Below are positions 27,586 to 31,094 of a stretch of 64,000 nt of DNA, in pieces (position 1 is the first letter of the stretch; every line of letters starts with the position of its first letter). Source of the stretch: Candidatus Poseidoniaceae archaeon (GTDB lineage: Archaea > Thermoplasmatota > Poseidoniia > Poseidoniales > Poseidoniaceae); NCBI GenBank assembly GCA_028356125.1, contig JAOMTZ010000005.1, positions 34,889-98,888 on the forward strand, written 5' to 3'. Both the position numbers and the translations under genes were made by a program. Below the pieces are notes generated by a model. It saw only the letters and a list, made by a program, of their open reading frames with translations. It made no database searches and was not told where the DNA came from.

Positions 27586-29217
27586 ATGGTGAACAATGTA
27601 GTCACGCCACCGACCCCCGTCAATGAACCGATTCTAGGATACCTCCCGGGTAGCAAAGAACGTGAAGAACTGAAAGCGCAAATTGCAATTCAAGAAAAGG
27701 AAATCATAGAGATACCATGCATAATCAATGGTGAAGAAATATTCACTGGCAATGTAACTGAACAGGTTATGCCTCATGATCACAGTCACGTAATTGCAAG
27801 AGTTCACTTGGCTGGAGAAAAAGAAGTAAATGCTGCAATAGATGCTGCCCTTGATGCTCATCAAATGTGGTCCACAATGCCTTGGGAATCACGATGTGCC
27901 ATATTCCTGAAAGCCAGTGAATTACTTGCTGGGCCGCGCAGAGCAGAAATCAATGCTTCCACAATGATTAACCAATCAAAAACTTGCCATCAAGCTGAGA
28001 TTGATTCCGCCTGTGAGTTAATCGATTTCTGGAGATTCAATTCAGATTATTGTAGACAAATTTACGAGGACTTACAGCCACCAGTTTCTCCGTCAAGCAT
28101 GTGGAACTCTAGTGAAATTAGACCCCTGGAAGGATTCGTATTCAGTGTCACACCATTCAACTTCAGTAGCATTGCTGCAAACCTTCCATCAAGTGCCGCA
28201 ATTATGGGCAACACGGGAGTTTGGAAACCATCAAGGAACTCCTATGTCTCGAACTATAGATTGATGAAACTGATGATGGATGCAGGACTTCCAGCAGGAG
28301 TAATCAACTTCATACCAGGAAAGGCAAGTGTAGTTGGAGATATTTGTATGTCTCATCCTGAACTAGCAGGAGTGCACTTTACTGGTTCAACTGGAGTATT
28401 CCGTAAACTGTGGAAAGACGTAGCAAATAATCTTGAGAATCTACGCTCATACCCACGTATTGTCGGGGAAACTGGAGGTAAGGACTTCATTGTCGCCCAC
28501 CCTGATTGTGATAGGCGAGCATTGGTAGTGGCTTTGCTGAGGGGATCTTTCGAGTTCCAAGGACAAAAGTGTAGTGCAGCGAGTCGAGCCTACGTCCCAC
28601 AGAGTGTTTGGGATGCTATTGGAGACGAATATTGTGAAGAGGTTTCTAAGATTACAATCGGAGACCCAAGAGACTTTTCCAACTTCATGTCTGCTGTTAT
28701 CGACAAGAAATCCTTCGACAACATTGCAGGTTACATAGACCGTGCAAAAGCAGACCCTGGATGTAAAATTGTGACTGGTGGAGGATATGATGACTCCAAA
28801 GGTTACTTCATTGAACCAACAACTATTCTTTGTGATGACCCGAAATATGAGAGTATGGGTGAGGAAATATTTGGACCGGTTATGTCAATACACATCTATC
28901 CAGATAACGACTTTGAAAACATATTGAAGGTATGTGACTCAACTTCAGAATACGCACTAACTGGCTCGATTTTTGCTAAAGACAGAAGGCATATCGAAAC
29001 AGCACTAGCTGCTCTCAGATACAGCGCTGGAAACTTTTACATCAATGATAAGCCAACTGGCGCAGTTGTAGGACAGCAGCCATTTGGCGGCGCTAGAGGA
29101 AGTGGAACCAACGATAAAGCAGGTTCTCCATTGAACCTTCTAAGATGGGTCAGTCCACGTTCAATCAAGGAAACCTTCGCTCCTCCTCATGACTGGACTT
29201 ACGGATTCTTGAACTGA
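27586..29217 (+). CDS. L-glutamate gamma-semialdehyde (1-pyrroline-5-carboxylate) dehydrogenase
   Basis: Aldehyde dehydrogenase family; SVTPFNFSSIAANLPSSAA, GETGGKDF, FEFQGQKCSAASRAYVP (P5CDH signature). ATG 27586 preferred over the TTG of the ORF track. Confidence 0.9.
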   Translation: MVNNVVTPPTPVNEPILGYLPGSKEREELKAQIAIQEKEIIEIPCIINGEEIFTGNVTEQVMPHDHSHVIARVHLAGEKEVNAAIDAALDAHQMWSTMPWESRCAIFLKASELLAGPRRAEINASTMINQSKTCHQAEIDSACELIDFWRFNSDYCRQIYEDLQPPVSPSSMWNSSEIRPLEGFVFSVTPFNFSSIAANLPSSAAIMGNTGVWKPSRNSYVSNYRLMKLMMDAGLPAGVINFIPGKASVVGDICMSHPELAGVHFTGSTGVFRKLWKDVANNLENLRSYPRIVGETGGKDFIVAHPDCDRRALVVALLRGSFEFQGQKCSAASRAYVPQSVWDAIGDEYCEEVSKITIGDPRDFSNFMSAVIDKKSFDNIAGYIDRAKADPGCKIVTGGGYDDSKGYFIEPTTILCDDPKYESMGEEIFGPVMSIHIYPDNDFENILKVCDSTSEYALTGSIFAKDRRHIETALAALRYSAGNFYINDKPTGAVVGQQPFGGARGSGTNDKAGSPLNLLRWVSPRSIKETFAPPHDWTYGFLN

Positions 29218-29507
29218 TTTGGAAGCCGACCCTTGGATTCTAGAGCCGCTCTGACCTTAGGAGTTAGAAGTTGAACATCCCTGTTCTTGGCCATTAGAGA
29301 GAGTAAATACCAGCCAACTGAAAGCAGTGGTGTTGAAACTAGAATCGTTAGACCCAACCACATAACAAGGTTATCGCTAGCGGCTCCCCATGCCCAATAA
29401 CCAACGGCTACAAGAGTTAGAATTAGGAACATTCTAGACGCCTCACTCGGTGTCGACCAACCTCTATGATCCATTCTTGGAGCGAACAATCTATCCATCC
29501 AACTCAT
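29199..29507 (-). CDS. small two-TM hypothetical membrane protein
   Basis: Two hydrophobic helices; convergent with P5CDH. Confidence 0.55.
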   Translation of the reverse strand: MSWMDRLFAPRMDHRGWSTPSEASRMFLILTLVAVGYWAWGAASDNLVMWLGLTILVSTPLLSVGWYLLSLMAKNRDVQLLTPKVRAALESKGRLPNQFKNP

Positions 29508-29588
29508 GACCGGATGTCATGTGATTTACTTTTGAATGAATGTTTTTTACAACCGGATGGTTAATCTCCATAAGTTGGCAGGAACAAT

Positions 29589-29657
29589 CCCTGCGATGAT
29601 GAGCGCACTTGAGCGGACTGCTGTTTCAGTGACGAGTGATGGGCGAACTGAGCGGGG
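29589..29657 (+). ncRNA. candidate C/D box sRNA (2'-O-methylation guide)
   Basis: Terminal stem CCCTGC/GCGGGG flanks C box ATGATGA (29596-29602) and D box CTGA (29648-29651). Internal C'-like GTGACGA (29629-29635) and weak D'-like CTGC (29618-29621); 12-nt candidate guide GTGATGGGCGAA abuts box D. Confidence 0.6.
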
Positions 29658-29708
29658 ACCAATCTAACCATCACAACCTTGGTTTAGTCTATCCATTCTG
29701 CCCTAACT

Positions 29709-31094
29709 ATGCAAGCGATGGTGGCGCCTTTAACCCCGCCACCAAAAGGGCTAGCTCTAGCGAGTAAATCTACTACCTGGAGCGTCATATGGAGGATGCT
29801 AGGGATTGTCTTACTCTTGTATGTGACAACCCAAGTAGCGATATTGATATTGTACGGAATGATCGAAGGTGACTCCGCATTGTCGATTTGTGCTATGATA
29901 TTCTTAGTACCACTGTTACTATTATTCACATATGTTAGAAGACCTAAAATTACTCATGTTGTAATGGCAGCCCCTGACTCAACAGACGGTGCCCTCCAGC
30001 ACAGCCTTCCTGATTCCAGAATGTTGTTTACACCAGTTCCCACTAGATTTTCTCACCATTTAATCAGAGACTCCCCCCCACTAGAAATGCCACCGACATC
30101 GACACTATGGACTGTTTTCTGCATCACTGTCCTCGCTGCATTCTTAGGATTGCTACCTGTCATGTTGAGTGATGATCCGATCTGGATTTTACTCGCCGTT
30201 CTGGTAGGGGTACCTGCTTGGCTGTTCGGATTCTCACTTCCAGTCCATGCATGGTGGGCATTCTCGACTAGGCACTTCCAATTAATGACGACGAAGAGAG
30301 ATGGCGAACAGATGCTTGTCGCAGGTATGCTTTCCACAATACCCGCTATTGTAATCAACTCCTTACTATTTCCACTGATGCTACTAATAATAGGCATTGA
30401 ATCAATGGAACCAGGGTCTCTAGGAGAATTCCTTATCCTCACAATTAGCGCACCAGTTGGGGAGGAATTGTGTAAAGCCGCATTTGTATTGAGCCTATAC
30501 AAATTGATTGATTCTCCGAAACGAGGATTTCAAATTGGTTTTTCAGTGGGCCTCGGCTTCGCATTACTTGAGAATTTACAGTACATCATGTTGTCACTAG
30601 GTGGAGGAGAATACGCCGCAATATCGTATTCTATGACTACAGTTATCCGAGGTATTGGTTCAATCCCTGGACATGCTTTTTGGACAGGTTTATCCGGAGT
30701 ATCAATAGGGTGGTATCTTTGTACAAAGCGCGGAATATCTGGCGATAAGATTCAGAATGATGATACACAATGGGTAGTTTTCGATGGAGATACGGGTCAG
30801 TTAGTAAATACTCAAAGAGAATTGACTAATATTGGAAAAACCGTAAGAGGATGGTTGTACAAGCCTTACGACAAGGTTTGGAGTTTACCTAGATCTCCAC
30901 TAGTAGGAATACCACTTGCAATCTTTGGACATGCTGCTTGGAACGGGAGTAGTTGGCTTGTATCTTGGCTATTCAGTGAAACCGATATTGTAGTACAGTT
31001 TTTGGCCAGCATTACATGGATTATTGTGATGGTAGTGGGTTTATGGATAATCGGAAGAGAAATCCTAGCAGCTGTAATGCACCTGCCTTCTTAG
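29709..31094 (+). CDS. PrsW-family intramembrane metalloprotease-like protein
   Basis: APVGEELCKAAFV (EExxK), GFALLENLQYI, SIPGHAFWTG and FGHAAWNGSS motifs in a multi-TM protein. Confidence 0.8.
   Translation: MQAMVAPLTPPPKGLALASKSTTWSVIWRMLGIVLLLYVTTQVAILILYGMIEGDSALSICAMIFLVPLLLLFTYVRRPKITHVVMAAPDSTDGALQHSLPDSRMLFTPVPTRFSHHLIRDSPPLEMPPTSTLWTVFCITVLAAFLGLLPVMLSDDPIWILLAVLVGVPAWLFGFSLPVHAWWAFSTRHFQLMTTKRDGEQMLVAGMLSTIPAIVINSLLFPLMLLIIGIESMEPGSLGEFLILTISAPVGEELCKAAFVLSLYKLIDSPKRGFQIGFSVGLGFALLENLQYIMLSLGGGEYAAISYSMTTVIRGIGSIPGHAFWTGLSGVSIGWYLCTKRGISGDKIQNDDTQWVVFDGDTGQLVNTQRELTNIGKTVRGWLYKPYDKVWSLPRSPLVGIPLAIFGHAAWNGSSWLVSWLFSETDIVVQFLASITWIIVMVVGLWIIGREILAAVMHLPS

Follow-up and report, generated by a model that had tools for sequence, protein, structure and literature searches.

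In archaeal C/D box RNAs, the proteins L7Ae, Nop5 and fibrillarin assemble on a guide RNA, and the class is already well known. For 18S Cm1703 and Cm1639, the eukaryotic guides are U43/SNORD43/snR70. The nucleotide on which they act corresponds to the second candidate target discussed below, but they are dedicated small-subunit guides. In plants, AtU43 is listed for Cm1645 (PMC11542601). An archaeal counterpart is P. abyssi sR25, a predicted guide for the same A-loop hairpin (PMC2584109); unlike that of the present guide, its predicted methylation site is U2552 in the loop, six nucleotides further upstream. The literature on archaeal guides stresses their fast evolution, and no site was common to all seven species studied.

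Here we describe a locus in a 64,000-nucleotide stretch of a Candidatus Poseidoniaceae archaeon; this whole stretch, as analysed, is called the window. The locus is like archaeal C/D box sRNAs in having boxes C and D, candidate D' and C' boxes between them, a terminal stem, a 12-nt guide that follows the N+5 rule and a length near 50-70 nt (PMC7994747). It is unlike archaeal C/D box sRNAs at large in that box D' is degenerate in the present genus and the guide is conserved over three phyla. The best explanation, which on sequence comparison we hold to be highly probable, is a C/D box guide sRNA whose D guide would direct 2'-O-methylation of 23S C2558.

In the mechanism that we propose, 29588-29658 on the + strand would be the gene of an archaeal guide sRNA of the C/D box type. 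The terminal stem would hold boxes C and D together in a kink-turn, C' and D' would form a weaker kink-loop, and L7Ae, Nop5 and fibrillarin would assemble on the sRNA. The D guide would pair with 23S UUCGCCCAUUA and direct 2'-O-methylation at LSU C2530 (E. coli C2558) in the H92 stem. There is also a real chance, somewhat below even, that 16S C1340 (E. coli C1402) would be methylated under the guidance of this core. We infer transcription of the sRNA, its assembly into an RNP and methylation of the target. The guide machinery is present in relatives: fibrillarin and Nop genes are adjacent in 16 of the 18 genomes tested, including all five of the genus's other genomes in that set. Both are missing from the same two genomes, one of which is the present MAG, 65% complete, where neither fibrillarin nor Nop5 was found.

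Layout of the element

The preliminary description had proposed a C/D box guide sRNA in the gap before a PrsW-like gene, and it is indeed there. The C box ATGATGA, the C' box GTGACGA, the 12-nt spacer, the D box CTGA and the terminal stem that it named can all be read directly at 29589-29657. CCCTGC occupies 29589-29594 and is followed by a single G at 29595; T29588 and A29658 form a further pair, which makes the terminal stem 7 bp long. The features are as follows.

29588-29658, + strand: C/D box sRNA gene, stem to stem, 71 nt including the outermost T-A pair
29588-29594, + strand: terminal stem 5' arm TCCCTGC, pairing kept in homologues
29596-29602, + strand: box C ATGATGA, RTGATGA in every homologue of the order Poseidoniales extracted
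29603-29613, + strand: D' guide GCGCACTTGAG (box C-D' spacer), an orphan guide that differs among relatives
29614-29617, + strand: box D' CGGA, a degenerate form; relatives have CTGA or CCGA
29618-29628, + strand: D'-C' loop CTGCTGTTTCA, 99% identity within the genus
29629-29635, + strand: box C' GTGACGA, RTGAYGA in most f1 relatives
29636-29647, + strand: D guide GTGATGGGCGAA, 12 nt, core at positions 3-11
29637-29645, + strand: D guide core TGATGGGCG (positions 3-11), pairs with 23S and 16S
29648-29651, + strand: box D CTGA, in all homologues extracted
29652-29658, + strand: terminal stem 3' arm GCGGGGA, compensatory changes in relatives
29199-29507, - strand: 102-aa ORF, no Pfam match, conserved in much of family f1
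29709-31094, + strand: PrsW-family intramembrane protease gene (Pfam PF13367), a neighbour and not part of the sRNA

Measured stem to stem, the element spans 69-71 nt and falls in the range of about 50-70 nt of archaeal C/D box sRNAs. Box C and box D are joined by the 7-bp terminal stem, which is the kink-turn arrangement of these RNAs. Boxes C' and D' are off consensus in the window and canonical in L048 and other phyla. Box D' had been called weak, and rightly so: the position that reads CGGA here is CTGA in L026, L048 and L058 and CCGA in many other relatives. We found a single instance of the full motif (C, C', D and a stem of 5 bp or more) in the window, and 200 dinucleotide shuffles yielded none. 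Folding energy by itself is uninformative (z -0.98), which is to be expected of a C/D RNA with its short helices. For the D' guide we found no credible rRNA target, the best in-register rRNA match being 8 bp with one G-U. Given the degenerate D' box and this orphan guide, the sRNA may be a single guide.

As a separate observation, GACTGCTG at 29616-29623 in the D'-C' loop is near-invariant across much of family f1 and genus g17 of f2, for no evident reason.

Conservation and homologues in other archaea

In a DNA search, 24 of the genus's 26 other genomes gave strong matches to the element (E below 1e-18), and weaker ones extended to most of the family and order; at E<=1, 58 of 61 genomes had a homologue. 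Identity within the genus (25 genomes) is 89-100% over the different parts of the element, with boxes C, C' and D at 100% and the D guide at 97%, and it drops to 51% in the upstream flank and 29% in the downstream one. Each of the 46 distinct homologues from the order retains stem pairs 1-4, and 45 of them retain pair 5, though the sequence of the stem changes in a compensatory manner (CCCTGC/GCGGGG, GTCGC/GCGAC, GCTAC/GTAGC, GTCCC/GGGAC). In an alignment of 17 sequences, 96% of stem cells are paired and there are 21 two-sided changes, against 5.5 in shuffles. With a covariance model, the element is detected in 224 of the 293 class genomes, usually as a single copy; among near-complete genomes of the class, 34 of 38 have a single-copy element. 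In the guide itself, positions 3-7 and 9-11 are invariant and position 8 is kept in 45 of the 46 distinct elements, while positions 1 and 12 vary freely. Thus the guide RNA reading of the preliminary description is supported by the conservation of RTGATGA and CTGA in the homologues extracted, by stem covariation and by complementarity to the organism's own 23S.

The homologues vary in their internal boxes. Box C' is RTGATGA in L048 and in other phyla, against RTGAYGA in most f1 relatives. In many f2 homologues (L036-L043, L045, L047, L049-L051, L053, L054, L057), the C' and D' boxes are lost and the D guide is kept. An apical hairpin takes the place of C'/D' in most of f2, and it covaries, with two-sided changes in three of its six pairs; the f2 variant may be an archaeal C/D RNA that works with one kink-turn. 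Matches to TGATGGGCGAC at G036 and G048:C23 were considered as paralogues and rejected, being without boxes or stem and resembling a gene start.

Beyond the order, a loose pattern (C box ... GGGCGANCTGA) matched 231 of 391 genomes of the phylum, and the reversed pattern gave none among the matches listed. Many of the phylum homologues are textbook C/D RNAs, for example TGATGATGAACGCAATTCTGAAAAATGAAGAATGATGGGCGAACTGA. A strict pattern run over the GTDB species collection found at least 80 loci, a lower bound from which absence from haloarchaea or Thermoproteota is not inferable. Among the matches listed, all titles are archaeal, all loci show a terminal stem, 4 bp or longer, and the taxa are Methanobrevibacter, Methanosphaera, Altiarchaeota, Methanothermococcus, Methanocaldococcaceae, Nanohaloarchaea and Thermoplasmata. 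The homologues of other phyla have a canonical CTGA D' box, an RTGATGA C' box and the same D guide. In the Methanobrevibacter phylum 127 of 132 genomes match, and the sRNAs among the matches listed all read TGATGGGCGA, save one chance match in G619. The second (D') guide of that phylum, ACCCTATGAGCT, is almost invariant (L303-L332 and phylum genomes), and no good match to it was found near the A-loop. As far as sequence can tell, near-identical guides are present in at least three archaeal phyla, and we regard 29588-29658 as a genuine, deeply conserved C/D box sRNA gene.

At curated cut-offs, no Rfam family matches in the window. The best Rfam match of the element is sR2 (RF01139) at 24.4 bits, below the gathering cut-off of 42 bits. 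Homologues in Methanocaldococcaceae and Methanothermococcus pass that cut-off (55.2 and 48.2), and therefore part of the lineage is already in an Rfam family with another consensus D guide: that of sR2 (GAUGGCgGcu) is not the A-loop guide. Apart from these sR2-like members, none of the homologues tested reached any family cut-off, and such genes therefore go unannotated.

Complementarity of the D guide to rRNA

An A-loop-adjacent 23S sequence had been suggested as the target in the preliminary description, and the complementarity is borne out in the organism's own 23S gene (L031), which carries GTTGTTCGCCCATTAAAAG. Positions 1-11 of the D guide pair with it at LSU 2526-2536 over 11 bp with one G-U, which exceeds the minimum of 9 nt of complementarity sought at the suggested place; counting C, the first nucleotide of box D, the duplex has 12 pairs. 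Only 0.3% of shuffled guides find a site like this 11-nt match at LSU 2526. As in guides with 10-12 nt of complementarity, the pairing runs across the N+5 nucleotide: opposite the guide nucleotide five positions upstream of box D lies LSU C2530, which is E. coli C2558 when counted from the A-loop, where U2552 is the first loop nucleotide and C2556 the fifth (Dennis 2015). This refines the earlier reading, since C2558 sits in the stem closing the A-loop hairpin (H92) and outside the loop. We consider 23S C2558 the likely target of the D guide. No published report of C2558 methylation, of the present sRNA family or of a two-target guide of this kind was found in the literature surveyed; members from M. 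jannaschii, M. maripaludis or Pyrococcus may already have been described.

The 23S target is invariant in the genes read from Poseidoniales, other Thermoplasmatota, an Altiarchaeote and Methanobacteriota, with the exception of G060. This Poseidoniales MAG holds a bacterial-type 23S gene (L073, G060:C25), which is probably contamination. Separately, the over-long (3.6 kb) 23S gene of G364 contains a 161-aa LAGLIDADG-like frame (L355:3593-4078), probably within an intron.

The second guides of some homologues also bear on the 23S target. In Altiarchaeota the second guide pairs with GGUUGUUCG, for which the predicted nucleotide is U2552 (shuffle P 0.0006-0.01 within 100 nt), and the f7 second guide is complementary to CGUGAGAUG, with A2577 as its predicted nucleotide (P 0.007); L164 and f7 were compared with their own 23S, and the other Altiarchaeota with the 23S of L164's genome. 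Double guides are expected to act within about 100 nt (Dennis 2015). Since both guides of these RNAs fall on one 23S hairpin region, a role on 23S is supported. In the Altiarchaeota L164, L179, L214, L237 and L240, a single RNA would address U2552 with its D' guide and C2558 with its D guide; the two footprints overlap on the A-loop, and therefore the guides could not bind one rRNA molecule simultaneously.

The core also matches 16S, an addition that the earlier reading had not seen, so 23S may be neither its sole nor its principal target. With at most one G-U, core positions 3-11 find exactly two rRNA sites, LSU 2528 and SSU 1338, the latter being CGCCCGUCA with one G-U; both subunits are matched by 0.26% of shuffled cores. 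The SSU N+5 nucleotide is C1340, as placed by the CACACACCGCCCGUC anchor. At the equivalent position, E. coli C1402, bacteria carry m4Cm, and P. abyssi, yeast and human carry Cm (PMC7005279 Table 4; PMC11542601 Table 2), with the P. abyssi number differing between PMC7005279 (1376) and PMC11542601 (1369). The 23S and 16S duplexes are about equal in calculated energy (-17.0 and -17.4 kcal/mol). The two sites differ opposite guide positions 8 (A vs G) and 10 (U vs C), where U and G are the only bases that pair with both, and the guide carries both: G10 is found in 46 of the 46 distinct elements and U8 in 45, and both are kept in the Methanobrevibacter-phylum list. The free variation at positions 1 and 12 fits published limits for guides, a 9-bp core and a 10-nt maximum (Chen 2007 and Yang 2016, cited in PMC8162545). 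A search for a dedicated 16S C1402 guide (YRAYGGGYGGNCTGA) matched 16 of 61 genomes, scattered and with differing sequences, against 5 of 61 for the reversed-pattern control; among the 16, the G034 match is to the element itself.

Competing explanations and significance

We hypothesize that one D guide could methylate both 23S C2558, on the peptidyl-transferase side, and 16S C1402, in the decoding centre, with U8 and G10 held by the need to pair with both. C1402 as a second target of the same core is plausible, at somewhat less than an even chance, and this extension of the best explanation stays tentative, a shade nearer to doubt. The two rRNA sites, their near-equal energies, the ribose methylation of C1402 in bacteria, yeast, human and P. 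abyssi, the persistence of U8 and G10 while positions 1 and 12 drift, and the lack of any consistent dedicated C1402 guide among the 61 genomes all argue for it. However, the 16S duplex forms without guide positions 1-2 and has nine pairs at positions 3-11, one of them an internal U-G, which falls short of the at least nine consecutive Watson-Crick pairs including N+5 set by Dennis 2015. In addition, A2 is kept in 43 of 46 elements, and it pairs with 23S and mismatches 16S. The A10A11 guides of family f15 (L135-L148) cannot form the full 16S core, and the C8 guide of genus g2 (L055) has a mismatch that breaks the 23S core and leaves the 16S core intact. A10 would be open to a 23S-only guide and C8 to a 16S-only guide, and these variants are exceptions; fully pairing with one site each, they would be natural tests of the two-target idea. 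U8 and G10 could also persist through slow drift from one ancestor. The converse, in which the sRNA in truth acts on C1402 and its match to 23S is incidental, is unlikely in our view. C1402 is a known archaeal ribose-methylation site and C2558 methylation was not found in the literature surveyed, L034 (G2) pairs better with 16S, L055 spares only the 16S core, and in f2 the D' guide has a 9-bp match at SSU position 889. Yet the 23S duplex is longer, A2 is retained despite its 16S mismatch, and the second guides of Altiarchaeota and f7 fall on the same part of 23S.

The genomic context suggests a further alternative, in which the element is not a free guide RNA but a kink-turn leader through which L7Ae would regulate the PrsW-like gene. 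Box C lies about 100 nt before the PrsW-like gene in nearly all f1 genomes and many f2 genera, and the upstream neighbour varies while the PrsW-like gene stays; in much of family f1, the 102-aa ORF lies between an aldehyde dehydrogenase gene and the sRNA. The linkage is seen at 29588-31094 and at most of L001-L029, L034, L039, L041-L048, L051-L054 and L057-L060. L7Ae-based translational control in archaea is suggested in PMC5539422. We nevertheless consider a leader very improbable, since the guide core is invariant and not the kink-turn alone, and since in other families and phyla this RNA is found where no PrsW relative can be detected close by. A chance look-alike without function deserves almost no weight: boxes C and D are just a few nucleotides long, and false positives of the C/D type are generally frequent (PMC7994747), but conservation, covariation and the target match contradict it. 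We favor the C/D box guide sRNA directed at 23S C2558.

As such, the present guide is a clear exception to the picture of archaeal guides as fast-evolving with few shared targets, and it offers a defined guide and defined nucleotides that could be tested in archaea that grow in culture, methanogens among them. Should the two-target reading prove true, one RNA would couple modification of the decoding centre and the peptidyl-transferase centre, and Cm1402, a three-domain site, would have a candidate guide in archaea. A single guide, near-unchanged over Thermoplasmatota, the Methanobrevibacter phylum and Altiarchaeota, would then serve both subunits.
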